A DNA stretch of 64,000 nt, taken from assembly GCA_027382625.1 (NCBI GenBank), contig JAJKFJ010022403.1:1-64000 (forward strand). The letters are read 5' to 3'. A model generated the notes under the pieces. The model did no database searches. It was not told the origin of the DNA and saw only the letters and a list, made by a program, of their open reading frames with translations. The position numbers and the translations under genes were made by a program. Positions within the stretch are counted from its first letter, which is position 1; every line of letters starts with the position of its first letter. Shown here piece after piece: positions 1,921 to 33,500 of the stretch. The DNA comes from Tetmemena sp. SeJ-2015 (lineage: Eukaryota; Ciliophora; Spirotrichea; Sporadotrichida; Oxytrichidae).

Positions 1921-4900
1921 ATGCTTATTATCTATTATATAACATTTTTACTCTTTTAAAGTGGAATAATCTAGAAGCCACTGCCAGAGTTAACTAAAGC
2001 TCAATTTAAGCACCTAAAGCAAACATTGCATTCATAATCTCCCTCTGCAATTGATCCTTTGAAGTAGCCTATCCTTCCACCTTTCAAATTTAAGGAACTA
2101 GCAGCCGCTCCTGAAGATCAAAGAAAGAATCAGTCAAATATGAGGGATATAACTGCGAGAACTGTGGCAAGAAAGATATAGAGGGTAAACTTTACAAGTG
2201 TGTGAATTGCGAAGAGTATAACCTTTGTATGGAATGTTACTCTAAGAACAAGTGTAACCATCATGCTAGCCATATTTTCTGTGAGATTCTCAAGCCTCTT
2301 GAGCCTTAAGAAAAGAACCCTACAATTTTGATGCAAGTGTTTGACCCAAGACTGTACTCTTAAATTTACAAACTAGAGGAAGAAGCAGATTCACCTTTGA
2401 AGACTAAATAGGATCTTAAAACATAAGAAATTCAGCAAGAGCAAAATTAGGAAGATGATGAAGACTTTGAAGATCTAGCTCCACTAAGTATATCTAGGTC
2501 TTTTTCATAGCCTCTTACATTGTCAAAGCAGAAATCTGGAAACACTATGAGCAAGCCACTTCCACCTATAAATACTACACCAACAGAGCAGTAGGAAAGA
2601 CTAGATTACGACCAGTAGTTCATTGTCATATTCTACACAAGTGTTTGGCTTTCGCAAGACAGTAAGAGTTTGTTCACGAAATCAGAAAAAATAGTCTTGA
2701 TGAAACTCCTTTTGGAGACTCTGCTTTAGTTGATCAGATTAACAAGTGTTAATCACATTCTTATGGCAATCTCAAATAAGGATGCTTTCTTCCAGTTACT
2801 TGTGAGTGTCTTATAACTTAATTCCAAGGAACTCATAACACTTTTCAAGAGTCTATTTGATCAGATAAGATAGCCTCCTTCAGCTATATGGCTCAACAGT
2901 CTCTAAATGAGCAAGGAAGGATTGAGTTTAAAGAGCACAGCTGAAAGAGAAGAAATAGCTGATAAGTAGAAAGTGGCATTACAAGTGCTTGAGACTTTAG
3001 TTTCTCATTTGCAAAATTTCTTGAAGTGGATGATAGATCTCGCTCTCTAACCAAGCATCGCAAAGCTTCAATCTTCTAACAATCATCAGTCGTGGGCTTT
3101 ATTGCTGAGGAGCTATAAGAATTAGAGAGTTTGGCTAGAGCATCTCCAACTGCATAGTAGATTTGTTCATCAGCACTGCTAAAGAAAAGGAGGAAAAGGA
3201 ACAATCGAATAGTGAGCTTAAGGCAAAGAAAAAGGATCAAAAGGATCTCTCAGAGATATAGGAAGATCATAAGGAAAGTGATGACGACTAAGATGATGAA
3301 TTGGTTCCTCTGAGCATGGCAAGATCTGTTAGTCAGCCCATTAAAAAGAAGACTGATAGTCAATCTCAACAGCCGCAGTCTTATCAGCAAATGGCATTTA
3401 CTACTCAAAACTTAACACTACAGATTATCAAGAGCATGGTCCAACTTCTATATATTGGAGAACAGGGAAGCAACTTAATTCAGATGAATCAACAGTCACC
3501 TTAAAAGAGTTCTCGCCAGCAACTGAATGGATCCATGTCACACTTTACGGAGATAGAGTCTCAGACTAAATACCTTTCTCAGATGTGGTCTTTAGTTTTG
3601 AAATCATTGACTTCTACCAATATCAACATGCTTACTGAAGCAAAGATTTTTGACTCTTTAATTAGCGCTTTCCTAGTATCCTCGGAAGAGATCAAGCAGA
3701 TTACTTTCCCCAAAATTTTACAGATTACTCAGACAATAGTTGAAAACACAACGAAAGATAAGGCGAAGTTTATCTCTAACTTGCTATTCCTTACTCTGGA
3801 AAATGTAACTTGCAGTCACCATGAAAAAGTGGGATACCTAGTTTGCTAAGGCTGGCTAGACATACTAATTTCATCAATATAGCTAATAGATCGCAGTACG
3901 AATTAGCTAAGCAAGTATATGCTAAGTTCAGTGATGATGAGATGAGTACCTTCCTCAAGAAGACATCCCTTTACTTGATAAACCACTTGAACAAAGGAAG
4001 CTTTGAGGGAGTGTCAGGAGCCGTGCCTGAAGTCATAATGAGACTAAGCCTTGCACAAGACCTTATCTATGCTGTGGTAAATGCAGAAAGCTTAGAGCAA
4101 TCAGGTTAGAAGGCTGTGCATGCTATTTTCAAATCAATTGACAAAAACTTGAAACATCAGAAGGACTTCACAGATAGCATTAACAACTTGATAACATGGC
4201 TCTTCTTGAATGCAAGACAGACAAAGGATGACGTGCCCATCTCCTAACTAGGCAATGCTAACTCATTGACTCCCTCTACTCTAAAAGTCAAATAGATTAC
4301 TGAAACAATAGAAGAGCTTTTCTAAATCCTTGGAGATACAGGAGGTGATGCTCAAGAAGCCATAAAGATTGCTTTGAACTCTCTGACCACTATCACTCGC
4401 AAGACTAACACATCGGTGGTTGAATTGGCTGACTCACATTCGCTAGGCTTTGAGCTTTCAACAAAATTAGGAGAAAGAGTGAATGAGTATTTCATAAAGT
4501 TGCTAGGCTAGTGGCTTGTAAATGATAAGGTGGCAAGTTATTTCGTATTTGAGCTAAAGGGCTTTGAATTCTTACTTGAAACAATAGGACTAGATGGATC
4601 AACTTCAGAGGATGAATTGGCGAATAACCAAGGGAAGGAAATTATACAGAAGATAAAACTACTTAACGATGAGAACGAGGAACCAGTAGTTGGTACTTAA
4701 TTAAGCAAAAATAATCTGAAATCAGATCTGCTCGCATCTCTGGAGGCTTCTATATATGACAGCATCCCGACTATGGATAACTTTGTTGAAGGAGTGGCCC
4801 CTCAAACAGTCACCGAACAGCCAAACCAATAAAACTAGATTGTATCAATTTACGAGAACTAGAAACAACTCTTTGTACAGGAGTTCTCCAAGAGTATCTC

Positions 4901-7900
4901 AATGATAGATAACAATGGTTAAGATGTAAATGCAAACTATCAGAAGACGGATTGGTCAGTCAATAAGCGAGCCTACAAACATCGAGTTATATTTAAGCAG
5001 CTGAACGGTCATTTAAGGGCTGAATACTGGGTTCTATTCTCACTTCCTCATGAAGTTGAGCTCAGAGAAATCTAAATCGGTTTCAACAATTTCTGGTCTG
5101 CTGATAATGAGATCTATGCTGAGCCTTTATCAGTACTGGTTGAGGCAGGTAACGATGAGAAAAATCTGACACTAGTCTGCAACCTCCATGTCGCAAAGGA
5201 AGATGCTTTTGGAAGTGTCTCTGCAACAGTTTACGGAGCAAACTTGCTTAGTTTCCCAGGCTAGACAGAAAAGATTTCTCTTGATAGTGATAACATCTAA
5301 GGTGATGTGCAAGAAATTATTTAATAGAAACTTCAGTCAATCCAGAACTTTAGGATTTAGTACATAAAGTTCAGCATGAGGCGCAACTTGATCTCTTGCC
5401 TTGAAAATTCTCCACTGGCTTCTAAGTTCTAAAAGTAGCTCACTCTAAGTATCAACTTCATTTCCTTGCTTGGTTATGATATAACTAAAGTCGGCAACTA
5501 CTAAAAGCATTTGAGGCAAGAGTAAAAGAAAACTGCACTTGAAGTTCTCTCCCTGTTATGCTCAGGAGAGTTCAAGTCCATACTGAAGGTGATTTCCTAG
5601 CAGCCAGAGACAATTTTAAAACTGAAGCAGTCATTCTCTATGCTGGCATCACTAGTTGGAGCAAAAGAAAATTTGATTATCGAACCGACATTCATAGCAA
5701 TCTCAACCTACAACAATGAAATGGGCGATTGGATTATAAGTCAATTCCTTCAACTTAGCAAAAGCAATAGTGGAGGCAGTGGAGCTGATACTTAATCATT
5801 ACAGAAGTATGCATCCCTGATTGGATAGATTGTAAGGTGCAACAAGAATGAAATGCCCAGGAGGCTTAAATTATTCTAAGATCATGTAATGGGACAACTC
5901 AGAAAGATTGTACAAGAAAATAGGTCTACTCATGCCAATCTGATCAAGAATCTTCTACCCTATGTTTATTTATTTTATTAATTTTTTCTCTCTCAAAAAA
6001 GTAATTCTCTTGTTATTATAAAATAGCGCGTAAGATTTTTATATATTGATGTTCAGGTATTTATAGAAAGCTTGAGAATAGCAGCACTTTAAATGTAATT
6101 ATTTATTACTCTTTTTTAAAATAGAATGAGCACCTGACTTACAAAACTCTCATCCAATCCTTTAATTTACGTATTTGAATTGAAAAAATCGATCTACTAG
6201 TGAAGGAAGGACATCTTGTAGATATCTTGGGATTACTAAGCAACTCAACAGCTGAGAGAGAACTACAGACCAAGATGTTGATTCAATTGCTAGTCTTGTT
6301 GCTTGTACCCCCTGCTCCATTTACTAACTCTCTAGTTGATGTGTAGCATTTCGCTTTTACTTATCTCCTTGACAAAGAGTAATTCCTCAATGGTTTAGAT
6401 TTCCAAGACTCTGTACTTCAAAGAGAAACTCTGGTTAGTATTTTGAGTGTTTCAAGAGAATTTATCGCCTTAGAGATCCATGAGCGCGCCATCAATCTTG
6501 ATACCCTGCTCCAACCTGATCTAATTAAGGACAAAGAGACGGCTTAGGTTAAGCTAAGTCATGCGCTCAGATTCTGGTTGAATGTTTCTTAGGAAAACAA
6601 AGTTAGAGAGAAGCTGGCTAGTGAAAAACTGCCCTTAAAGCTCTATGCTAATCTTAGACAAAGTAATCCTGAGTAGCATAGCAAGATCATTAGAAAAGAC
6701 AACTTGATTTCAGGAACTGAACTATCATTGATGATTGAGCTTATCAAGTAACTAACATCAGGTTCACCAGCTCTTGAAGCACAACTAGCTGAAGAATTAA
6801 TGAGAGACCTTGACTATCTGTCAAAGATTAGAGATATGGACTTCGTGAATAAGGTATTCCTTCCTCTTTTGAGAATAGAAAAGACCGTGCCAGTTTGCTT
6901 CTGGCCATATGACAGTGAAAATGAAAAGTGGCTTCCAAATTACAGACCTCTAAACTTATCAGACTCCCAAAATAACAAAGCAAATCAGTAAGCTAACTTA
7001 GCTAATTTGCACAATTCATTTGTGCCTAGCTCACTACTTCAAGGGGAAAAGAGATCCGCCTTCATCAAAAATTTCAAAGAAGTTATGGGACAGCACTCAA
7101 AGACAAACGTGAAAAAGTATCTCAACTCAACCTGGACACTCGCTCATTCACAGTCTGAGAATTAATCATCTGTCTCTCAATTTTCATCCTTCTGGAAGAG
7201 TATTGAAAATAAATCCCCAGTAGTGATATTGATCAGTGGCACTACACAGACTGGATAGAATATCGCTTATGGATGCTTCAGCGCCAAGGGTATTCCAGCT
7301 ATGCCTCCTAATCTCCAATAAGACTCTGACTATCCAGTTAATTCGAGTCCAGAGGACTTCTGCTTCTGTTATATAGATGAAAACAGCTTCCATCATTTCT
7401 CTCCTAAGGCTGGAGTTCCCATCATATCTATGTTCACTGACTATGAAGGAGGAGGAGCAATTTCAGTTGCAAATGACTTCATGCTCATGTCTTACAGCTA
7501 CGATTTTGTGTTCACTGTTGGAGCTATCTACGATCTAGAGAAAATCCTAATTGAAAGCAATCCTAAGCCTGTTAAGGAGGTAGAAAGCTCTATTACATTC
7601 GCTAAATTCGAGATTTGGACGACAGATCTTAATAAGCAACCATAGATCCAAGCTGTATCTTCTATGCAATCCATTTAAAAGGCAGGCCTATCTCGTGCTT
7701 TGATAGCACAAGACTACTCAGGGGACTTTGCACTCCCTTACAGCGACCTCAAGCATCCTTGGTTCAATCCTCTATATGCTTATAACAATTACAGATCTAA
7801 TCCAGTATTCATGGTGCCTGCTCATCTAACACTTGCTCAACTCTCCAAGATCATGCTAAACTCAAATGTTCATTTCAAATCAAGAGCCCAAGAAGTTCTT

Positions 7901-10900
7901 GATAATAAACAATCATTAAACAACAGTGATACCCTTGGGGATATTTATGAAAATATGTTAAAGATCAATTCTATTAAGGAGTCATCTAATGGCATAATTG
8001 ATCTTGAATACGAGATAAATCAACTGCTTAGTACAAATAGTTCAGCTGAGAGGAAAGATGAAGATACCACAAGTACGAAAGAATTGAATGAGGCTGAAAA
8101 GGGAGATGCTCATTCTTCTAATCAGATTCAAGGATACGCTCCGAGAATGGGAATCTTCGAATAGTTTGAGATCAAAGGAGGAGTCAAGCTAATTATTTCA
8201 GTGACTCTACAGTCTATGAAGCTCTGGAAGTCTGAAGAACAAGCAAAATCTTGGGAACTCTGGCTAAAAGAACTTGAATCTTTCTCAGAGATTCCTCTAT
8301 TCTTCTAGCTGTTCTTGAAAAATTCTAAGTGCAAGGACCTTCTGTTCAAGGTACTTGCAGGATAGCCAGATACAGAGATCAACACAGGTTTGAAACCTGA
8401 TGCTGCAGCTTTGTCAAAATGGGAGGACGAGCAAAAGCAAGCTGTGCAGTTTAACTATAAGATTCTTCAAGAAGTCTTCTCAATATCTCATGATGAAAAG
8501 CTTAGAGAAATAGGAATCAAGAGTGGACTCCTGCCAACTATACTCGAAAGACTAGGAGCTATCAGTGGAGAGAAACCAAGAACCAAAGAAACAAATGAGG
8601 AGAGTCAGAAAGAAGAGGAAGAAAAGAAACTTGAAGCTAGTGCAAGTCAATAGATGTCTTAGGAGAAAAATGTCGAAAAGAAGAAGCGCAAGGGTGTTGG
8701 CTACTCTACTAAAGTTGGACAGACTTTTAACCTTTAAAAAATATCTGCTTGTCAATTCATAAATATGTTAACGTGAATCAGTATCTCGAGAATAAGAAGG
8801 TTCGAAATGAGTAGATAAAGATCTTAATCGACATCCTAATCAACTTTTTCAAGTGTGAAGGTTGGTATGCAGGAGAGGAAGTATGCGAAATTATTTTAGA
8901 GAGCCCTCTACTTCCACTTTTAGAATCTGCTTTTAGAAATGGATCCTGGCTTGATATGGCGAAAGAGTCAGAGGTTTATCAATCTTACCTAGGTATGAGT
9001 TACTTAAATTTATGATATGTATTTAGCTCTTGCGAGATCAATTGCCTCTTAGAAGAGTTTAGTTCAATGCTTGGCTGAGATAGATCAGAGATACAAGCCT
9101 TAGTAGACCGAGCCAGTTTATAAGCTTTTGAATAAGTTGAACGACCTCGCTTCTATCTTTTTAAATTGCTTGAGTCAGTAGTCAAAAGGAGATGCGTAAG
9201 AACAACTGTTTGAATTATCTAATTCATTTTCGACCAATTTCTTAAATAAATTGCAAACTTATTAAAATGCGTATAGTGACTCTGAGGTTGCAGAAAAGCT
9301 TGCCAAATATGTCACCAAGACTTGTATCGTTGTTCAAAATGCAGTCTCTAAACTTCTTAAACATCAAGGTAAGTTTGCTATCACACTTCAAAACTTGGCT
9401 TAAACTTCACATATAGATGATGAAAACTTTGTCGAGAACGCTTTCAACAAGCCTCTAGCTGAGTGCTACAGATTGCTATTGCAAGACTTGAGATTTGATA
9501 AGATGGACATGCTTGACCCTAACGATTTAACCCGCACTACTTTCAAGCACCACTACAACACCATCTCACAGTAGAACTAAAATCCACCTGCTGCCAAACT
9601 CATGAGACTTGCGAAAGAGCTTGCTGATCTTTCAAATGCTCTTCCATCGGATCACACTAATGCATATTCTTAATTATTCGTGAGGGTTCACTCTACCAGA
9701 GTTGATATGATGAAAGCCCTAGTATGTGGAGCTGCCAAGACTCCTTACGCTCATGGCTGCTTTGAGTTCGACATATTTTGTGATAACAACTACCCAAGAG
9801 ATCCTCCAAAGATGAATCTCATTACCACTGGAAGCGGCAGCGTTCGTTTCAACCCTAACCTTTATGCTTGCGGCAAGGTTTGCCTCTCTCTGCTTGGAAC
9901 ATGGAGAGGATCAGCTACTGAGAACTGGGACCCTAATCTATCAACTATCCTTTAGGTTCTTCTCTCTACCCAAGCCATCATTAATGTCTGAGGAAGTTTA
10001 CTTCAACGAACCTGGTTTCGAGAACGAGGCAGGTACACCAGAGGGAGAAAAGAAAAACGAAGGTTATCAGAACATCGTGCGTTACTGCAACATCAAGTTC
10101 GCAATGGTGGAGCAACTTCGCAAGCCTTCAAAGGGTTTCGAAAGTGTGATTAAACGCCACTTCTACATAAAGAAGCAAGAAATTCTCAAGGAAGTCAACG
10201 AGTGGGTAGCTCTAGCTGAAAGCAACGAAGCAACTTACATGGGACTAGTGAACGACCATAACTATACTTGGGCCAATCAATTCAAGGCTTCGAAGACTAA
10301 GTACAAGGAAATGCTAGTAACTGTAATTCAACAACTAGAGGAGGAGCTGAACAAGTTAGAAAGGCCTACTGATTATGAACTCAAGCTGCATCAGAGTCAG
10401 AACAAGCGTTTAAGTTAGGCAGTGCTGAATTAAAAGAAGAAGTAAGGCATCCTTGAGGGAAAGTAAGATCTTGACAAAATCAATGTGGACTATGAGGATA
10501 ATCAGGAAGATGAGAATAATGGTGAGGAGCAAATAGATACTACATAAAAGAACTAGATTAATGTGGAAGATGAAAAGGTCAAAGATAGATGGAGCAGGTA
10601 TATAGGTGCTATGGGAGTTGAAGCTGTAGCCAAATAGGCTAACGCAAATATCTTCCTATCAGGAGCAGGAGCTCTCGGAATCGAAATCGCCAAGAATCTT
10701 GTACTTTCAGGTTGCAAGTCATTTACTCTGCATGACTATAAGCCTATCACTAAGAGAGATCTTAGTGGACAATTCTTCATAAATTACGAGGAAGATGTAG
10801 AAAATGAGCAGAAGAAAAAGGCCACAAGAGGAGAAGCATGCATGCCCAGACTTAAACAACTTAATCACTATGTCAAGTGCTAGCTATCCCCACCCATCTA

Positions 10901-13900
10901 GCTTCCACTTAATGTTGAGGAGATTGAGAAAGCTCCTTGGAACCTTCATTTAATGGATGTCGTGATTTTAACAGAAGGTTCTCAGGAGGAGATAATTTTC
11001 TTGGACAATTACTGTCGAGCCAAAGGAAAGAAGTTTATAAGTGCAGACGCCTATGGTGTATTCACTCGAGTATTCAATGACTTTGGTGATAGCTTTGAGG
11101 TGTTAGATCCAAATGGAGAAGAGCTGCAAGATGTGATGATAAAGTCAATAAGTAATGAAGAGAAGGGTCTTGTGGAATTATTAGCAGGCTAGAAGCACAA
11201 GTTGCAAGATGGAGATGAAGTCCTCATAACTGGAGTTGAAGGAATGGAATTGCTATAATAACAGATTGGAACAGAGGGAGTTACTAGCATTAACGAAACT
11301 GTGTGGAAGGTGAAAGTACTCACTCCACATGCGTTCAGAATAGAAGACACAAGAGGTTACTCTCCTTATATTAGGAATGGAATTGCTAAGTAACTTAAGA
11401 CGAAGAGAGTTATGAAGTTCAAGAGTTACGCAGATTCAATGTTGGCATCAGATGGAAGCGTACCCTCAGATGAAAACCTGCAGTATGCAGACTTCGAAAA
11501 GATTCAAAACAATCAGATAGCCCACATCGCATTCGAAGCTCTCCACTAATTCAAAGCATCTCATAACGGTGCTCTTCCCGGTAAGATATTTTTCTTAGTT
11601 AACATCTTTCGTAGGGCCTTGGAATTTCTTGGATGCAGAGATGTTTATATCTTATGCAATGAAAGTAGCTGAAAAGAATCAAGAGCTAAAGTCAGCTGAA
11701 TGGAAATTGGAGTCTTCTAATGAACTTAAGCTACTGTACTTATTTAGTTTCACTTGCTCAGGTGTCTTCAATCCACTCTGCGCTTTCATGGGTGGCTTTG
11801 TTGCTCAAGAATGCATGAAGGCAATCACACAAAAGTTTTCTCCAACACATTAAGTCTTTTACTACGATGCGTTAGAAGTTCTTCCAGAGTTTGATCCCAT
11901 GTCTCATTTGATCGGGCCTTCTGAGGAAGGACAGAAAGTTGAAAATTATTTCGAGGAAGTTTACATGAAGACTATCAAAACAGAAGAAATAGGTCACAGA
12001 ACTGACGGTTTGCGTATTCTCGTCGGTGAGGAACTAGTAGAGAAACTAGCTCACACTAGGCTCTTTATGGTAGGAGCTGGTGCTATTGGTTGTGAGCTCT
12101 TGAAGAACTTTGCGATGTTGGGAGTTGGAGCAGGTAGAGGTGACAAGTAGAAGAAGCTCCAACCAGGAAGTATAGTCCTCACAGACCCAGATGTAATTGA
12201 AGTTAGTAATCTCAACAGACAGTTCCTGTTCAGAGAGAAGCATCTTAGGAATCCTAAATCCTCAACGGCAGCTGCAGCAGCAATCTATATGAACAAAGAA
12301 CTAAAGCAGAACATCGTGGCTAGACTAGATAAGGTTCATGAGGGAACCTCCCACATTTACACCGATCAGTTCTTTGAGGGATTGACTGTAGTCACAAATG
12401 CTTTAGATAACGTCCATGCTCGCAGATATATAGATTCAAGATGTGTAGTTGCCAAAACCCCCCTCCTTGAAAGTGGTACGTTGGGTCCAAAAGGCCATGT
12501 GTAAGTGGTCTTACCTTTCCTCACAGAAAGCTATGGCTCGCAAACTGATCCAGATGATGCTGGAGGAGAGATTCCTCACTGCACCCTCAAGATGTTCCCT
12601 GAAGAAACTCTGCATTGTGTGGAATGGGCTAGAGATAAATTTGGTAAAATCTTTACTCAAAAGATCCAAAATAGCATCAAAGTTTTGGAAGAAGGTAGCA
12701 GCTTCTTACCAGTCAGTCAACAGGATAACATGAGTCTCAAGGAATGCATTAAGATATTAGAGAAGAGACCAAAGACTTATGAAGATTGTATTGCTTATGC
12801 TAGACACAAGTTCGAAAAATACTACAATCACGACATCAAGCATTTGCTTCATGTGTATCCTCTGGATGCAAAAACTAAGGATGGAAACATGTTTTGGAGT
12901 CTTCCAAAGCGCCCTCCTGTTCCAAGTATATTTGACCACTCTAATCCTCTCCACATCCTATTTGTAACAGCATTTGCAAATCTAAGAGCAAATACCTTCA
13001 AGATTCCCATTCCCACTGATTAGCCTAGAGGTGAAGCTTGGAGATAACTCACAGCCGCCAAGGCTCAAGAATTCAAGGTAGAGGAATTTGTGCCAAATGA
13101 TTAAAAAGCACAAGAGATCTAGGCCTCAGTTCAAAAGGATTCAAAAGAAGAAGAAAAGAAGGAAGAAGAAAAGGAACCTTTGGATGAGAAAGTAGATCCT
13201 AATGACTTGGAAGCTCTTCTTAAGAAATTTAAAGACCTGATAAAAGATCTTCCAGCAAAGGATGGAAAGATAGAAATTGAGTCCATACTAGAGGCACAAA
13301 TATTTGAAAAGGACAATGACTCTAATCATCACATTGACATAATCTATGCTATGGCAAACTGTCGTTCCACTAATTACAAGCTCGACCCCATGGACTGGCT
13401 AACTGTAAAACTCAAGGCTGGTCGCATCGTTCCTGCCCTCTCTACCACAACTTCTTGTGTGGCTGGACTTTAAACACTTGAACTTGTAAAACTGCTTAAA
13501 GGTTGCAAGAAAGCAGATTACAGGAACATCTTCATGAACATGGCAGTTCCCTTTATGCAAGCCTCAGAGCCAGGAGATGTCTCTAAGACCAAATTGACGG
13601 AGTCTATCGAGGTAGATCTCTGGAGTAGATGGGATGTGAAACTTGGAAAGAATGTAACTCTCTCGCAAGTAATTAAGCAAGTTGAGAAAGAGCATCCAGG
13701 TCTTGAAGTAAGAGATGTGCTCAGAGGTAATGCACCTCTATTCCTTTTCGCTTTAATGAGTGCTCCAGGCCAAGAGAAAGAGAAAGAATCTCTCCTAAAC
13801 ACTAAGGTTATGGAATTAGTGGGAGCAGAGGAAGGAGAAGATAAGTATGTCGATATATCAATCACCTGCATCAGAAAGAAGGTTTAAAAAGAAGAAGTTA

Positions 13901-14058
13901 AGATCTAATAAGAGGTTTAAAAATCAGAGGCTGAAAGCTCTTAGATTGACACTAACGTTTAAGATCAACCAGGTTCTAAGACTGAAGAAGCTAATGAGAA
14001 ATAAGAGGATACGGAAATATTGTCAGGCGTTCCTCCTGTCAGAGTTTTCTTTGAATGA
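1921..14058 (+). CDS. Giant fusion protein: ZZ finger, BIRC6-like body, UBC (E2) domain and complete E1
   Basis: This gene predicts a roughly 4000-residue protein that carries a ubiquitin-conjugating domain and a ubiquitin-activating enzyme on one chain. In order it has: a ZZ-type zinc finger (2140-2290, CxxC pairs such as NCENCGKK and CVNCEEYNLCMEC); a long helical region; a beta-rich domain near 5030-5300 (LPHEVELREIQIGF) like the BIRC6 carbohydrate-binding-like domain; the BIRC6 core; a UBC domain (about 9640-10220); and a full E1 (about 10560-14058). From the UBC catalytic region to the final TGA (14056-14058) there is no TGA in frame once the 34 nt intron is removed. No ATG lies between the UBC tail (10311) and the E1 adenylation fold, so the E1 has no separate start. 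Start 1921 is a weak guess. One-base slips occur near 2133, 3018, 3165, 3843 and 9985. No BIR domain was seen. Confidence 0.8.
5964..6124 (+). other. 161 nt intron that probably contains a 133 bp IES
   Basis: GT at 5964 and AG at 6124 bound an AT-rich insert in the BIRC6-like body, and removal restores frame. Inside it the 9 bp direct repeat TTATTTATT occurs at 5966-5974 and 6099-6107. Excising 5966-6098 would leave a 28 nt GT-AG intron, the usual size in this window. Confidence 0.55.
6171..6200 (+). other. 30 nt GT-AG intron with in-frame TGA
   Basis: GTATTTGAATTG to CTACTAG. It carries the only in-frame TGA in this stretch, and removal joins two coherent helical segments of the fusion protein. 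Confidence 0.6.
8727..8767 (+). other. IES, 41 bp, pointer TTAAC
   Basis: The insert breaks the conserved BIRC6 motif GYSTKVGQTFNVNQYL. It starts at the first TTAAC (8727-8731) and the second copy is 8768-8772. Deleting one copy plus the spacer restores the frame and the family sequence. No GT-AG pair fits, so it is not an ordinary intron. Confidence 0.82.
8993..9026 (+). other. 34 nt GT-AG intron
   Basis: GTATGAGTTAC to GTATTTAG. It joins VYQSYL to ALARSIAS in the BIRC6-like region and contains an in-frame TGA. Confidence 0.75.
9640..10260 (+). other. BIRC6-type UBC (E2) domain within the fusion gene
   Basis: The segment matches the UBC domain of BIRC6/Apollon, including FVRVHSTRVDMMKALVCGA, CFEFDIFCDNNYPRDPP, RFNPNLYACGKVCLSLLGTW (the Cys of GKVCLS is the expected catalytic residue) and YFNEPGFE. 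A single extra base near 9985 breaks the frame between the IIN and SEEVYFNEPG segments. Aligned to the family as I know it, deleting one base gives the exact expected length. Known BIRC6 is a hybrid E2/E3; activity here is inferred. Confidence 0.85.
10560..14058 (+). other. E1 ubiquitin-activating module (UBA1/UBA6 family) at the C-terminus of the fusion
   Basis: The whole E1 architecture is visible: the inactive adenylation half (LSGAGALGIEIAKNLVLSG, 10660-10720), the active adenylation half with the ATP loop GAGAIGCELLKNFAMLG and SNLNRQFLFR, the catalytic Cys in IPHCTLKMFP (about 12567-12596), the second catalytic cysteine half-domain, and the C-terminal ubiquitin-fold domain (EVDLWSRWDV onwards, from about 13609). 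The tail after the UFD is Q/E-rich and ends at TGA 14056-14058. All Trp codons here are TGG. Whether it is closer to UBA1 or UBA6 cannot be settled by eye. The acidic linker at 10430-10600 resembles a normal E1 N-terminal tail, but it is continuous with the UBC domain. Confidence 0.92.
11581..11614 (+). other. 34 nt GT-AG intron in the E1 module
   Basis: GTAAGATATT to TTTCGTAG. Removal joins HNGALP to GPWNFLDAE in frame, the only interruption in the 3.5 kb E1 module. Confidence 0.85.
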
Positions 14059-15729: not shown

Positions 15730-18700
15730 TCAATTTTAAAGTTTGTCTTTTTTTAATTTCTTCTCCCTACCAGCCAGAAACAACTTATTCAGTACTTTCT
15801 TCTTTTAGCTCACTTTCCTCTGCTAAATCAGCTTCTTATACTCCAATAAACATTTACTTCCCCTTCTTATTCCAAAGCATCTTCTCTATCTTGTATCTCC
15901 TTTATCAAAATTTTCCTTTCTTCCTTTCCTAATACATGCCTGTAGGTTTGGAGAGGTAAGGCCTTCTTTTAATTAAGAATCTCCACTCTTTTTAAATAAT
16001 CCTTGTACTTTATGTCCTCAACTAAACATATCTACATCTAGAAATGAAGAATAATATTTTTTTAAAAAACTAAGTCCCTCATTTTGGATAGCCTCTTATT
16101 GAGGTATTCATACTTTCTCACATCCATTAGGAAAGCATTTCCTTGTTTCAAAATCTAAGTTTATCTCTGGGGCTAAGAAAGATTGAATTCATGATGAGTT
16201 TAATTAAGCTTTGATGAATTTATATCTTCCCTATATTGCTGGAACATATTTTCACTTGCTTCTATACTAATTGAATGTCGGAGCTAATAAGTATTCTATC
16301 TATTGAATAGCTAGCTCTTATTTAGCATATTAAGATTATCTGAGTGCATTTTACCATTTAGAGCAAGACTCTTGGATGACTCGTTCAATTTCTTCTTTAA
16401 AAAACCAAAAATCCCCTTTTAAACCCAAAAATTTTAAAAAAAAAAAAAGTTGGTTTTAAAAAAAAAAACCCAAAAAAACCCCGGAAAAAAAAAAAAAAAC
16501 CTTTTTTCAAAACCCTTTTTTGGGGGGCCCCTTTTTAAAAAAAAAATTTCCCTTTTAAAAAAATTTTTTCCCGGCCCCCCCCCAAAAAAAAAAAAAAAAA
16601 AAGGGGGGGAAACCCTTTTCCCCCCTTTGGGAAATTTTTTAAAAAGGGGGTTTAAAAAAAAACCCCTTTTCCCGGGCCCTTTTTTGGGGGGGAAATTTTT
16701 TTTTTCCCCCAATTTCCCCCTTAAAATTTTTCCCTTTTTGGTTTTTAAAAAAAAAACTTTTTTAAAGGGGGGTTTTTTTTTTTTTTTTTAAAAAATTTAA
16801 AAAAATTTTTTTTTTCCCCCCAAAATTTTTTTAATTTCCAACCCCCCCCCCAAAAAAAAAAAGGGCCCCCCGGGGGAAAATTTTTAAAAAAATTAAAAAA
16901 AATTCTTTTTTAAAAAAACGGGGGAAATTTTTTCCCCCCCTTTTGGGGGGGGAATCCAAAAAAAGGGGGGGGAAAAAAGGGGGTTTTTTTTTGGGGGGTT
17001 TTTTTGGGGAAAAGAAAAGGAAACAAAAATTCCCCCCATATTTTTTTTTTTTGGGCCCCAAAAACAACCAAAAAGGTTTTCCCCCCTTTTTAAAAAATTT
17101 AAAAAACCCCCCCAAATTTCCCGGGAAACCCCCCCGGGTTTTTTTGGGGGGAAAAAAAAAAAAGAAAATTTTGGGAAAAATTAAATTTAAAAAGGGAAAA
17201 AAAAAAACCAAAACCCCCCCAAAAAAAATTTCCCGGGGGGAAAAAGGGTTTTTTTTTTTTTTAAAAAAATTTTTAATTTGGGTTTCCCCCCCCCTTTTTT
17301 TAAATTTTTAAAAAATTTTTTTTTTTAAAATTTTGGGGAATTTTTTTTTCCCCCCTTTTTTTTTTTTTCCAAAAAATTTTAAAAATTTTGGGAAAAGGGG
17401 AAATTTTCCCCCCCTTTTTTTTAAAATTTTCCCCTTTTTTTTAAACCCCCCCCTTTTGTTCTTTTAAAAACCCCCAAAAAGGGAAAAAAAGGGGGGGCCC
17501 AAAAAAAACCCCCCAAAATTTTTGGTTTTTCCAAAAAAAACCCCCCCTCCCCCCCCTTTAAAAAAAAACCCCCGGGGTTTTGGGTTTTTTTTGGGGGGTT
17601 TTATCATCCTGTTATTTGACTACCTACTCAATTTACTCATTTATCTTTTCAAAGTCACTTTAGCTTTTTCTCTTTTATTGCTAATGATTTTAAGGTTTTC
17701 TAACTATTTCATCTCTCCCATGAACTTGCTAATCATCTTCCTCTAAGATATCGACTCTACTCGAGTACTGAATACTTCTATCTACGAACTTCTTGTCTCT
17801 TATATTGTCTGACTACTTCTCACTCCCCGAGTTTTATTAAGCTTGCGAATTCTTAGTCATAGTATTTGGATCATGCAGGTAGGCGTTTGAAACTCCAGCA
17901 TCGCTCAACTTTTGTAGTACTTATCTTGAGCCTGGCTTGCTTAGTTAGTGAGAGGATATAGGAGGTTTGGCCTTAGCTATTCTTGTATTCTAGCTCAGTT
18001 AAGAAGCAGAACTTTACCCGTCTAAGTGCTTTTGAGATAGCAAAATGCGGGGCTCTTCTATCGCTGAGACAGTTGAGGGTCTCAAAAGATTCGCGTTGGA
18101 AAATTTAAATTTAAAACAATATATTGGAGTATTCCTCTGGGATCATTACACTCTGAGAAAAAGAAAACAACTTTAAATATAGAATGCTTCTTTTCTTAGA
18201 AATCAAAGAGTCTTATACTTCTTTGATAGTCTGACATATCAGTAACTTAAGGAACAATCTCAGGTGAATTTTCACGAGCTTATTCTTGCTTGAACAACTA
18301 GCTAATAAATTAAGAGTTTAGCATTGAGCTCTAGTTAGTTTTAGTCTCAAACTTTTAGGTCTAAGATTTATTAGTAAGGTTTTTGTGAAGATTGAGGCTC
18401 CTCCCAACTTCTAATTCTTAATTTTACAACTTATTAAGCTAATCATTGCCTTCGTTAGGAGAAGTAACTTCATTCTAATGAGTGTAATTTAATTGCTGAG
18501 ATTAAGCCAGGAATTTAGCATTGTTCAAGCTTTAAATGTTAAGAGTTTGAGTTTAGTCCAGGTTTTCAAAAGTGTTTTCGGCTTTAGCAAATTTAAGATA
18601 AAGATCGTCTACTGCGGATTTAGGTCTACTTATCAAATGCTGATATTGAAGAAATCTCTCATTGTTAGTTTAAACTATCTAAGGATATGCTAGGTTGCTC

Positions 18701-20590: not shown

Positions 20591-23382
20591 TCAATACTCT
20601 ACTCTACCACCTTTAGAAATTCTATCGCAAACTAATGTGATATGCTATTTTAGCTTTCCGACATCCTGAAGTGTCTTTATTTGATTTGTTGTTTGCTGAG
20701 CAGCTGCACCTCCGGCTGGTCCGTTCTTACCACCTGCTTTTGAGAGGCACGTCTTAAGCAAGTTTGTCATGGAGGCGTTAGTCACATCTTCCCAACTTTA
20801 CTCTCCTTCATCGTCAACGTGTGGAGATAGATGCACTCTAAATGCTTCATACCTTAAAGAATTCAATATATTAAGCATCTATCATACTCCTCGTCCGTTA
20901 GTTTAAATCTAACTTTCAGAAGGAGAAGGATTATGTCGACAGAGCAGGATAATCTAACTGATACCTATCGTTGTTAGAATTAGAGATCCTCAATCGATTT
21001 GGCAGTTTCTATGAGCTAGGTATATGTGTGATTAAGTAACACATCCATGTTGTTAAGAGGTGAAGGATTCTTATCTTCAAAACAGAAATTATAAGTTCTA
21101 CTTTTAAAGATCTTTGAATCTGGTAAGAAGTCTTTTTTGAATTGTGCGGAATTGTAAGCTTCTATCCTCTAATACTTTTCTGAGTTTTAGTATGTCCATT
21201 CTGATTTTGTAGTGCTCATCGATGACGTTAAATAACTCATTCAGAGGAATAGCATCAGCAAATGAAATCTCAAGATCATTATCTACAAAGAGAGTTAAAG
21301 ATTGATTAACGAATTCTTACTTGAGTTTAGAATTTCTTGAAGTCTGCGAATCAACTCATTCATTACGAACCATATTGAGCAAAAATCAGGAGTCTAAATT
21401 CTGATTTTCATGTCATCTTTTGAGACCAATATTGAAACTGGAACTTAGTTGTGGTAGAAGAAAGATATTTGCTTTTTGTTGGTGCACATCTCTCTTGCTT
21501 GTAAACTCTCGACTACATCTTCGAAGAGAGAGACAGCAGAAGGTGAAGCCTTATTTAAGACTAAGTTAAGTTTAAAGTCACTAGGCTCTTTTGCAACACC
21601 GGGAGGACCGATCGTTACGAAAAATTGGAGTGGTACCTTAATTTCAGCTAGAGATGTCCTTAGAGTACCAGGGGCTTAGCTATTCTAGTCTGATAGTTAT
21701 TGATAGGTTGCTGTGAGAGTTATCTTTGATTCTGTAGGCAGACTATTTTTCATAGGATAAAGATAAATCTTTATAACGGGAGGGGTTTAGTTGCCTCCGA
21801 AAGTGAGATTCAAAAAATAATAAAGAAAGATTCTCAAACTTGTAAAGAGTGGTCTCTGCAAAAATGTTTGTTGGCAAATTGAGATTGAGTTAGATATTTT
21901 TGAAAGTGCCTTTATTTCCTTAAGAGCCTCTTGCTCCTAGAGTTATCTTAAGACTCATTCGGAGGAGCTACCCACCTTCATTCCTTGCCAGATGATTAAG
22001 AGGATCTTCTATGTACTCTCTTGTAGCTTCTAGCATAGAAGATAGTTGAGGGTTTATCGTTATTCTCTCTTCTGGTTCTACTTGCTTTTCATCTTCATGA
22101 TTTCTAATTCGAGCTAGCAATTTATGATGCTCTATTTCCATTTGCTAGTAATTCATTTCGCTGTTATCAGAACCTGCCCCGATGTTTTGAAGCTGCTACG
22201 CTGGAGATTCGGTGCCCAGATAGACTATCTAAAGCCATCCATTATCCGATAATGTAACAATTAGGCCTTCAATGCCGCCTAATTTTGTAGTATCAACAAA
22301 AATAGGAGCATTCTGAGTTTTAGCTGTCCATACCAGTTGCACATCTTTGTAAATCATCAAGTAGTGAGAGAAGGAACCCATTATGAAACTGAAGCAAGGT
22401 GAATCGTGTTAATTATTCAAAGCTTGAGAAACTACTGTGCTTGCATTTCTTTCCTCACTTTCAAAAATGTCCTTATATTAACCAGGCACATGAAAGGTCT
22501 TTATACAGGAAGGTGTGTATTCAAGACGCCTTTGATATCTCACTTTTCCATCACCCTCTTGCAAAATGAAAAATGACTGCTCTGCCACAACTACGATATC
22601 ATATCTTTTCGAGATCTTGTTGTAGTGATATACTATGTGCTGTGCCTACTCTCCTATATTACAAGTCCAATCAGGTTCAAGCCTTGCCCTCTTATCTTCT
22701 TATTGCTGTGCAGCTTTCTAAGCAGCTATATTATTATTGGTATAAGCCTGGAGACTTTGATATCGGTAGCACTCTATCTCGAGATTAGTATTAGTGATTA
22801 TTAGGCTTTCAGTTGTTGAGGCGTAAATAATGGGACCTGGAATTAGAAAGTCTGGCAATTGAATCTGAAAGACAACTGTCTCGTTTTCATAAAAGAAAAG
22901 CGCGCCATCAACTGACTGTACGCAAATCATTTCCTTCTAGCTTTTTCCGAAAGCTCCACTCACAAAATTGTAGGCATTCCTATCGAAAGAATGTTCATAG
23001 AGCACTCGGTAATTTGAAAACTGATCTGTGGAAGTGATCTAAGCAACTACTAGTTTTCTGGAGTGAAGAATGGCAATTGATTTGTCACAAGCTAAACTGA
23101 AACGACCCACAGATACTTATAGGATTGGGAGGCCTAGATTCTTTTCAAGCAGCAAATCATTGACGTTGAATTATCGTGGTTGAGGTTTGTAAACTCTTAA
23201 TATGCCCTCAAAGCTTCCTATACGAAACAATCATCAATTACCATTTGAAACTTACCAACGACAATCTTGTTTTCTGCGGGCTCTGAATTGTCAGCATTTC
23301 CAATGCAGATTGAATTCTTTTCAAATTCCTCATTGTTTCCCACATTAGTGGCCCAAAGCTCTTTAATTTGAAAAATAGACAT
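20591..23382 (-). CDS. BBS9: BBS9 (PTHB1), BBSome subunit
   Basis: BBS9 is a structural subunit of the BBSome, which moves membrane cargo into and out of cilia. The N-terminus (from ATG 23382, MSIFQIKELWATNVGNN) matches human PTHB1 along the beta-propeller: IVVGSFEGILRVYKPQP, LAVLHSRKL-like and SVDGALFFYENETVVF segments, then the GAE and hairpin regions, and the C-terminal CDRISKGGRVEY directly before TGA 20591-20593. Introns lie at 23218-23255 and 21283-21320. A 37 bp IES (21073-21109) interrupts the conserved FKDKNPSPLNNMD block. One-base slips occur near 21815 (T run) and 20880. It is full length, with no in-frame TGA once these are accounted for. Confidence 0.93.
21073..21109 (-). other. 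IES, 37 bp, pointer AAGAT (minus strand)
   Basis: ATCTT repeats at 21073-21077 and 21110-21114 on the plus strand flank an AT-rich insert. Removing one copy joins FKD to KNPSPLNNMD, matching the BBS9 family exactly. The available GT-AG pair (27 nt) gives the wrong frame. Confidence 0.8.
21283..21320 (-). other. 38 nt GT-AG intron in BBS9
   Basis: On the minus strand GTAAGAATTC to CTTTGTAG. Removal joins QEILNS to NDLEISFADA. Confidence 0.75.
23218..23255 (-). other. 38 nt GT-AG intron in BBS9
   Basis: On the minus strand GTAAGTTTCA to TTCGTATAG. It splits the Gly codon of IVVGSFEGIL, and removal restores the family motif. Confidence 0.88.
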
Positions 23383-30597: not shown

Positions 30598-33500
30598 ATG
30601 CCACACAAGAACAACATCAACCCTAATCCAAACATAGTTGTAAATCTAAGAGGTACATTATGATTTTAAAAGGAACATTCCTCTTAAATTTATTAATTTA
30701 GCTATAATTTGCTAATTTTTCCATTTAGAGTGCAAGTATGACATTTTCAGAAGGATCTCGTAGGAATTCTTCAAATGGGAAACTCTTCTCTCTCAAGAAT
30801 ATTACGTGTCTATAAAAAAGCAGTCCACACTGGGTGTATTGGGAACCTCCTAAAATTACAATTCACTCTCTGGGAGAGAACCTGGAGATGGTTGTGATTC
30901 AGACTTAATATATTTATTACTTAATTAAAAAGTACAGACAGTCAGTAGCTAGCTGCAACTGCCACTAGTTCAACTCTAGCTGTTATGGATAAATAGCCTA
31001 TGAGCAAAGCAGTGAACCAGTCTACATAAGGCACACCAGCACTACCAAACAATCGAAGTAACCTCAGATCTAGTAAACGCTATCTCCCTAATTTTCAAAA
31101 CCCTGAAAACGCTAAGAGTTCAGCTCAAGAAGACAATCTCTAAAAATAGGGATTTTTAAAGTATTAATATGGTTTATAATTATTAGGAAATTAGAATCAG
31201 AGCATTGGAGCGGGAGCACAAAACGATAAGTAGCAAAACCCTCAAGCTACTACGATTTCTTATCAGTGGGATATTCTTTGGTTCGACCACGGAGGCCTGA
31301 CGCCTGAGTTCCTTTGCAGCATGTTACCTTGGCAAAGAGTAAATCATTTTCTTGGTAATATTTCATCCATCTATTCATTAAATGTAAACCCTTTAGAGTG
31401 GATATCTGATTATAGGTATGTTGTAGGTATGTATAACATAGCAAGGAAAAATACTCTCAGCATCCACTTGAAGCGTTTCCTCAAAGAATTCCCAAAGGAG
31501 TACAAATTTTCCCAAATACCTGGCTCTATCCTGCTGAGTTCTTCGAAATTAATGAATACTATATGCAAAAAGCAAACAAGAGATGCTTAATCAGTGTAAA
31601 TTTTTTCTTTTCTTTTTAAGAGAAAGCAGATGATATCAGATGGAGAAATGACTGAGGAACAGTCCCAGAAGGATCCAATCGTTTTATTCATTTGCAAACC
31701 TGAGGCTTCTTGCCAGGGTAAAGGCATATTTATCGTAAAGCGATTGGATGATATGAGACTTTAACTAAACTCGCAACTTCAAGCTCAACTTAAACAGTAC
31801 TAAGAATATCTACAAGCATAGGAGTACTATGATACCGCTCTTATGTATTCCTAGAAGACTACCAATCTGGCAAAAATTAATTTTTTGAGTGCTTAAATTT
31901 AAAATTAAACCTTCGTTAATCAGACGTAGGGAAATTCAAACTAAAATCCATTGAACTTCTCTGTGAACTAAGATCAATCTAAACTGCTAATAAGCGAATC
32001 CTTAGGGTTAGGGTGGTTAGGTTGTAGAGGCTCCACAAATAGTCGAGAAATAAAACACTTTTGTGATCCAGAAATATATGAAGCACCCTGCTTAATTAAC
32101 GGACATAAGTTTGACTTTAGAATCTATGTCTAATCACTAGTGTAATCGAGCCACTCTCTATTTATAATTAAAATTTAAATGAATGAGTAAGTATATTTAC
32201 ATGTTTAAAGATGGGTTGGTAAGACTGGCTAGTGAAAATACAATGTGAGCAAAAATATTAGGATATGTACACGCATCTTACAAACTATTCTCTTAACAAA
32301 AAGAATCAAAATTTTGATGGAAATAAACACAAACTGACACTATCAGAATGTCTCAAAGGAAGATTCAGCACTTCAAATTAGTTAAATGAATATTTAAACT
32401 AATATACTTCGAGTGTGAAAGGTACTTTTGCAAAGCAGTCTGAACAAATATGGCTTGAGATTGAAGATATTGTGATAAAGACAGTGATAACGATTCAACC
32501 TCAACTTTAGCACTATTACAGGAGTTCTCAACCCAAGGAACCAGATCTCATTCATAAAAATCTTCCTTTAAATACCTTATCTATGCTATGAGCTGCTTGG
32601 ATTTGATGTTATTTTAGACTATAAATTAAGGCCATGGCTACTTGAGGTGAACCATCTGCCAAGCTTTAATTCAGACACTCAAACTGACGAATAAGTATAA
32701 AAGATATAGTTTGATTTGTAATTTACACTAAATAATTGAATAAGTAAAGTATGAGCTGATTAGAGACGTATTTAAGATTCTACAAATGAGCATCGAGCAT
32801 AGAAAGCGAGTTCATAAAGAACTTAAAACTGAATAGATGAAGTAATCTTAGCAGCAAGGATGCTATAAACGTTTGACTGTGAAAGAGCATGTAGAAAGGG
32901 TCAGATTCGATCCATTCACAGTTGAAAAGCTAGATCCTCAAAACAAATTCAAGCTCATCTTTCCTAAGCCAGCTTCAGTTGAGGTGCAGGCGATACTGAT
33001 GGCTCCAGCTACGAAAAGTATCAAACTTATTAATTTAACATCTATAATATATCAAAGGAAGGCGAATGAAATATGGTAGATGACAACTGGCACCTTCAGA
33101 CATAAGTTCCCCAATCAAGCACAGCCCAAAGGATGAGAAGAAGAAAAAGAAGTCACTCAAATCAAGGCATAGGAAGCAGAGCTAGCAACTTCAGCAATAA
33201 ACACTAGAGTAGATATAAGAGACCCATGCCAAAGCTAATGAATGCAGTAAGATTAAAAATTAATTGCTGAATGAGAATAAAAGAGGCTTACGAAGATCAT
33301 CAAAATGTAGAGGAAAGCAATCAAAAGGACTAAACTGTTTTGGAAAAAGAAAGTCAAGATCTTTTTAATAAAATTGGCTAGGAGTTAAACTTAGAACTTA
33401 GTTTTAACTGGCTAACACTGATGATAACAGATAGAATATGATCGCATCTCCTCCAAATGATAAGTCAAATGATAAAATATTTGAAGGTTTATATTTCAAC

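Follow-up and report, generated by a model that had tools for sequence, protein, structure and literature searches.

A predicted single-chain fusion of a BIRC6-type ubiquitin-conjugating domain and a UBA6-like ubiquitin-activating enzyme in ciliates

The fusion gene of Tetmemena

We analyzed a 64,000-nucleotide stretch of DNA from the ciliate Tetmemena sp. SeJ-2015 (assembly GCA_027382625.1, contig JAJKFJ010022403.1, here C3120; hereafter the window) and found a long gene in which a BIRC6-type ubiquitin-conjugating (UBC, or E2) domain is followed by a ubiquitin-activating enzyme (E1). The genes were read with TAA and TAG as glutamine and TGA as stop. An E2-E1 fusion had been proposed at this place from the letters of the sequence (the original prediction). 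The features of the gene, all on the plus strand and in window coordinates, are the following:

2142..2261, plus strand: ZZ zinc finger close to where the matches to a BIRC6-like body begin (Pfam ZZ, 6.3e-07; tblastn of the relatives P0008, P0010 and P0024)
2262..9604, plus strand: BIRC6-like body, of low similarity to the body of ciliate fusion proteins (tblastn of the same three)
8993-9026, plus strand: intron of 34 nt in the body (from the frames)
9605..9988, plus strand, frame 2: BIRC6-type UBC core with the catalytic Cys codon at 9881-9883 (Pfam UQ_con, 1.3e-19; BIRC6, 7.8e-46)
9989..9991, plus strand: TGA closing the frame of the UBC core, across which relatives continue (frame and alignment)
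9990..10370, plus strand, frame 0: UBC tail, its first part aligning with BIRC6 (7.6e-18, residues 206-282 of 3ceg)
10371..10590, plus strand: linker with approximate boundaries and six in-frame TAA/TAG codons
10602..11102, plus strand: E1 inactive adenylation domain (IAD; Pfam ThiF, 5.9e-13)
11160..11399, plus strand: E1 FCCH domain (Pfam E1_FCCH, 1.7e-18)
11409..11580, plus strand: start of the E1 four-helix bundle (4HB), which resumes past the intron (Pfam E1_4HB, 5.1e-09)
11581..11614, plus strand: GT..AG intron of 34 nt interrupting the E1 frame
12019..13566, plus strand: E1 active adenylation domain (AAD) including the SCCH insert (Pfam ThiF, 2.3e-53)
12580-12582, plus strand: E1 catalytic Cys codon, just ahead of the SCCH profile match (alignment column)
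12598..13410, plus strand: E1 SCCH domain (Pfam UBA_E1_SCCH, 1.8e-68)
13567..13866, plus strand: ubiquitin-fold-domain region (alignment to human UBA6, reaching residue 1027)
14056..14058, plus strand: TGA stop of the fusion gene (frame reading)

Full-length relatives of ~4000 residues are collinear with about 2139-13890 of the window (P0024 to 14055), with 25-52% identity depending on the piece. Their first ~600 residues have no match in the window, and 2142 need not be the start of the gene. In the Protein Data Bank (PDB) search, the BIRC6 match passed directly from core to tail, covering residues 25-202 with the core and 206-282 of the same chain with the tail, and the predicted BIRC6 type of the UBC was borne out by both parts (core 7.8e-46, tail 7.6e-18). 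The next-best PDB matches, UBE2O (7.2e-25) and UBE2Z (5.4e-21), were much weaker; these E2s, which are large or linked to UBA6, are of the same broader UBC type, but their chains lack an E1.

On the E1 side, IAD, FCCH, 4HB, AAD and SCCH all scored above the Pfam cut-offs and make up the canonical set of a ubiquitin E1 (Ube1 subfamily). The Ube1 profile TIGR01408 gave 892.8 for P0010 against a cut-off of 750 and, for the window exons as two pieces, 215 and 612. Pfam E1_UFD had no match in the window, and P0010 and P0024 reached 24.2 and 23.5 bits against a threshold of 25. Unlike in animal BIRC6, no BIR domain was found with Pfam in the six window pieces or, at E 0.1, in P0010 and P0024.

The UBC tail, the linker and the E1 share one TGA-free frame, running from 9984 to 11580 and, past the intron, from 11615 to 14058. 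The first of these exons (1597 nt) contains no TGA, and the openness is not due to chance, since order-1 Markov sequences of equal composition had a mean of 13.1 and 0 of 2000 were TGA-free. Taken alone, the 220-nt linker is weak evidence of a joint frame because 173 of 2000 Markov sequences were TGA-free as well. The original prediction had placed the UBC domain and the E1 in one frame with a single 34-nt intron removed. We confirmed the intron at 11581-11614, and the common frame stood for tail, linker and E1 (9984-14058), but not for the catalytic core, which lies in frame 2 and is closed by the TGA at 9989. The absence of both TGA and ATG between the UBC tail and the E1 had also been claimed: the first part is correct, and the second is so between 10311 and 10611, the latter already within the E1 fold, but the tail itself has in-frame ATGs at 9984, 10104, 10239 and 10311.

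Conservation of the fusion

Three protein searches returned 91 proteins (ordinary E1s being left out by sizing), the best 120 of 1057 and 114, in total 216 distinct proteins; the queries were the E1 part of P0016 in the second search and P0057 in the third. We assigned the domain order by BLAST of the UBC and E1 pieces. The order UBC then E1 was found in 108 proteins in addition to the window, the reverse in 2, an E1 only in 84, a UBC only in 21 and neither in 1; some of the E1-only and UBC-only rows are fragments. The predicted E2-E1 fusion is thus borne out by half of the collected proteins. The original prediction had called for a check of other ciliates, and the junction was present in Tetrahymena (T. 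malaccensis and T. utriculariae), Ichthyophthirius multifiliis, Pseudocohnilembus persalinus, a Platyophrya transcript and four species of Paramecium (P. tetraurelia, P. octaurelia, P. pentaurelia and P. sonneborni). The other fusion rows are mostly metagenome or transcript entries and may not all be ciliates. Transcript-derived P0010, P0016 and P0027 span the UBC-linker-E1 junction, and P0190, with 1288 residues, was the shortest UBC-E1 protein noted.

The alignment comprised 109 fusion rows. All 107 rows that cover the position of the UBC Cys have the residue, all 105 that cover the E1 Cys position have that one, and the adenylation-site Gly, Asp, Arg and Lys were invariant where covered. 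The BLAST-defined linker was 39-85 residues long (median 56; window 66). With the domain order, the joint frame of UBC tail and E1, the conservation in relatives, the intact catalytic residues and a single fused clade (see below) in agreement, the fusion of UBC then E1 is, as far as sequences can tell, almost certainly real in ciliates.

For one further fused hit, P0057 from COSAG06, ciliate contamination is not favored as the source: P0057 branches outside the ciliate rows or, depending on the tree, has an open placement, and over 60% of the query it shares 66% identity with P0084. We take COSAG06 to be a probable Picozoa assembly. An excerpt of PMC8599508 names COSAG01 and COSAG03 among six Picozoa CO-SAGs, and COSAG names are also used by another project according to an excerpt of PMC7615077. 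Two other long proteins, P0199 and P0203, combine ZZ, SPRY, discoidin-type and UBC domains without an E1 and may represent the body and the UBC in an unfused state.

Ancestry of the two halves

The fused E1s formed one clade in every E1 tree: with 52 rows (SH-aLRT 100), with 33 rows after 19 were dropped for redundancy or long branches (100/99) and with an outgroup made up of human UBA2 and the UBA3 of this genome (99/100). The fused UBCs likewise formed one clade in a tree of 38 rows (100/99), and in the sampled E1 and UBC sets the fused clade was free of unfused rows. Since the two trees each give one fused clade, a single fusion event before the divergence of the sampled ciliates appears most likely.

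The relationship of the fused E1 to UBA6 is less clear-cut. In the E1 tree without outgroup, the UBA1s were separated from the UBA6s, the fused rows and the reverse-order rows at 100/99. The window E1 was on average 40.4% identical to 15 UBA6s and 34.5% to 4 UBA1s (37.7% to human UBA1 alone), and 27 of the 28 fused, reverse and window rows had a higher mean identity to the UBA6s than their identity to human UBA1, the exception being the reverse-order P0188. Among the best 120 of 1057 matches, the nearest UBA-named unfused E1s outside ciliates were UBA6. The C-terminal E1 half gave 483 bits with UBA6 in the PDB search, 435 with yeast Uba1 and 419 with human UBA1.

Several results weigh against a UBA6 origin and would fit a third lineage of ubiquitin E1s that is sister to UBA1 plus UBA6 and for which the link to BIRC6-UBA6 would be functional analogy only. 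The UBA6 clade was weak in the 33-row tree (45/56), and the best outgroup-rooted tree united UBA6 with UBA1 (74/75). By identity, the UBA6s are nearer to human UBA1 (45% on average) than to the fused E1s (40.4% for the window E1), and the N-terminal E1 half preferred yeast Uba1 (179 bits) over UBA6 (162). The grouping of fused E1s with UBA6 was not rejected in the presence of outgroups (p-AU 0.425; 0.478 with the reverse rows included). Given the separation from UBA1 without outgroup, the identities and the nearest named matches on the other side, we regard a third lineage as a serious minority possibility. The phylogeny advised by the original prediction put the fused E1 on the UBA6 side of the split from UBA1 in the tree without outgroup. 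As the rooted tree and the preference of the N-terminal half disagree with the other results, we call the fused E1 UBA6-like, a candidate rather than an established orthologue of UBA6.

Self-charging and its alternative

Our preferred reading, which we consider probable overall, is that a gene of ~4000 codons encodes a single chain of ZZ body, BIRC6-type UBC, linker and complete UBA6-like E1, of one origin and acting as a dedicated line. In such a chain, the E1 half would adenylate ubiquitin and load it on the cysteine of its SCCH domain; the ubiquitin would then pass to the UBC cysteine of the same chain, or of a partner chain upon BIRC6-like dimerization, and the charged UBC would ubiquitylate substrates gripped by the body. 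BIRC6 itself is known to dimerize. The enzymatic activity, the charging in cis or on a partner chain and an insulation from UBA1 are all inferred, and the chain may provide a dedicated E1-to-E2 line alongside the ordinary UBA1. Even a linker of 39 residues, if extended at ~3.5 A each, could by our estimate span >100 A, and the linker length therefore does not exclude docking in cis.

Animal BIRC6 (BRUCE/Apollon) and UBA6 resemble the ciliate chain in the BIRC6-type UBC core and tail, the UBA6-affine E1, the ZZ body and the position of the UBC near the end, but they are two proteins, whereas the ciliate fusion is one chain. The BIRC6 complex of animals is enriched in UBA6, which works with BIRC6 on LC3, as described in an excerpt of PMC10827748, and our PDB search found BIRC6 and UBA6 together in entries 9qgw and 9xgb. 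One structure speaks against an exclusive partnership: in 9qgg, a BIRC6-type UBC was solved with a UBA1-like E1, so the pairing with UBA6 is not exclusive.

The same structure would suit a real fusion without self-charging, in which the E1 half acts in trans on other E2s while the UBC accepts ubiquitin from any E1; the link would then only set stoichiometry or location. The genome also holds E1s without a UBC. Such a role in trans nevertheless seems rather unlikely, given that both active sites and the short linker are retained across the fused family and that no unfused row falls within the one fused clade of the sampled sets. Self-charging of the fused chain appears slightly favored. More tentatively, and somewhat against our own expectation, the fusion may represent a self-charging cascade in cis, with E1, E2 and substrate-holding body together, and the pairing of BIRC6-type UBC and UBA6-type E1 may be ancient rather than an animal invention and have been joined at least twice in opposite orders.

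The frame break and the genetic code

In the assembly, the UBC core (frame 2) and the E1 do not share a frame, which counts against a single chain and would allow two proteins here, one stopping at the TGA at 9989 and the other, an E1 with a UBC-tail extension, beginning at the ATG at 9984. P0100, a database protein without a UBC, starts exactly at the Met corresponding to 9984. Such a split would, however, sever the UBC fold behind its core. The relatives cross the point unbroken, with the same Met inside a continuous frame in 107 of the 109 aligned rows (one has a gap, and the window is the odd one), and a paralogue on contig C1744 of the same genome reads in one frame across the point matching the TGA. 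Nor is the break unique, as the same gene also changes frame near 3100, 3840, 5970-6250 and 8740 with no clear GT..AG intron there, which points to indels in the assembly or to germline sequence that is eliminated. A split gene is therefore very improbable, and the break looks local rather than a gene boundary: a mutation, an error of the assembly or a germline insert that is eliminated. Searching the genome at the DNA level with 9640-11700 gave only the window itself, so there is no second copy against which to check the break.

Two other explanations of the break were considered. A programmed frameshift at the TGA is not favored, as no shift is required there in the relatives or in the paralogue of this genome, although this is less firm for this species alone. 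An intron was rejected: the conserved residues are contiguous on both sides and leave no room.

The last alternative, that reading TAA and TAG as Gln ignores a stop in the linker, with its six such codons, and merges two genes, is scarcely credible, given the Gln columns described below, the junction of 39-85 residues kept in 109 sequences, the transcript-derived frames that cross it and the absence of an in-frame ATG between 10311 and the E1 fold. The aligned part of the fusion gene has 26 in-frame TAA/TAG codons, which we compared with the corresponding columns of the relatives. Those at 9953, 10635, 11851, 12502 and 13471 matched Gln in 106 of 106, 108 of 108, 106 of 106, 105 of 105 and 99 of 102 relatives, respectively, and the one at 11391 in 79 of 107; the columns of the other 20 were variable or sparsely filled. 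Judged by these alignments, the assignment of TAA and TAG to Gln is sound.

The assembly has the look of a spirotrich-type ciliate germline with scrambled genes, since the N-half and C-half pieces of E1s lie on opposite strands of a single contig in three cases (C3057, C2158 and C3784) and the gene pieces on C1744 are out of order. C4A4 repeats, the telomere sequence of spirotrichs, begin at base 1 of nine contigs; the backward control of this pattern is the pattern itself, and the repeats hence carry no information.

Comparison with known systems

Contrary to the original prediction, which knew of no described E1-E2 fusion, one exists in bacteria. According to an excerpt of PMC12355090, Cap2 of bacterial CBASS unites E1 and E2 functions in one chain and is structurally homologous to the noncanonical E1 ATG7. 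The ciliate fusion differs from Cap2 in its full eukaryotic Ube1-type E1 (IAD, FCCH, 4HB and SCCH). Profiles of cap2 had no match in the window exons, and in P0010 only cap2_3 matched, with 27.6 bits against a cut-off of 320. Among the matches listed, we found no description of a eukaryotic ubiquitin E1-E2 or BIRC6-UBA6 fusion in the open-licence PMC literature, and the excerpts of PMC12355090, PMC11354881 and PMC10827748 describe no eukaryotic E1-E2 fusion. The fused proteins themselves are already deposited, for example, as putative UBA6 or UBC core domain-containing protein.

Two transcript-derived proteins, P0188 and P0189, resemble the ciliate fusion in combining a ubiquitin E1 and a BIRC6-type UBC, but the E1 comes first and the UBC last, and they grouped away from the ciliate type in both the E1 and the UBC trees. 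The best PDB match of the P0188 UBC was BIRC6 (8e-40), and the P0188 E1 was 39.9% identical to human UBA1 vs. 38.2% to the UBA6 mean. P0189 additionally has a WWE match, and its start looks adapter-derived. The reverse-order pair suggests that the joining of this E1 and UBC is favored.

That E1 and E2 meet as free enzymes is taken to be fundamental to the ubiquitin system. A complete E1 welded to a single E2, and conserved in this state, breaks with that layout, and it does so in a phylum with genetic models (Tetrahymena and Paramecium). If UBA6 orthology of the fused E1 holds, its presence in ciliates, and perhaps in Picozoa, would point to an earlier origin of UBA6. It also provides gene-fusion (Rosetta-stone) evidence on the BIRC6-UBA6 partnership that is independent of animal cell work, and a single-chain object for structural study of the E1-to-E2 hand-over. 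In ciliates, a single chain may carry out two steps of protein tagging that are normally kept apart.

Other loci and neighboring genes

SCCH matches were found on six contigs, the one on C3311 being weak and those on C2158 and C3784 alike in score. A second UBC-E1 locus lies at G000:C1744:98500-108400 (L034), where the UBC adjoins the E1 and the linker region is interrupted; two pieces, L034:2011-2115 and 2276-2431, lie upstream in the wrong order, an arrangement typical of scrambled germline genes. No UBC matched within 9.9 kb beside the E1s of C3057 (L035) and C2158 (L036), and the N-half of the C3057 E1 prefers human UBA1 (243 vs. 171 bits). The E1 on C3784 likewise belongs to the genes that lack a UBC.

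Elsewhere in the window, no tandem repeats with a score >= 100 were found. Long TGA-free frames overlap on both strands at 15831-18142, two of which were tested with Pfam and had no match. The remaining neighbors are the following:

21647-23230, minus strand: PTHB1 N-terminal domain (E 1.1e-96), presumably of the BBS9 family
30898-32232, plus strand: match to the tubulin-tyrosine-ligase family (E 1e-11)

In contrast to the fusion gene stretch, the PTHB1 stretch has an almost identical copy at C4281:12821-14404, perhaps a macronuclear or second-haplotype copy.

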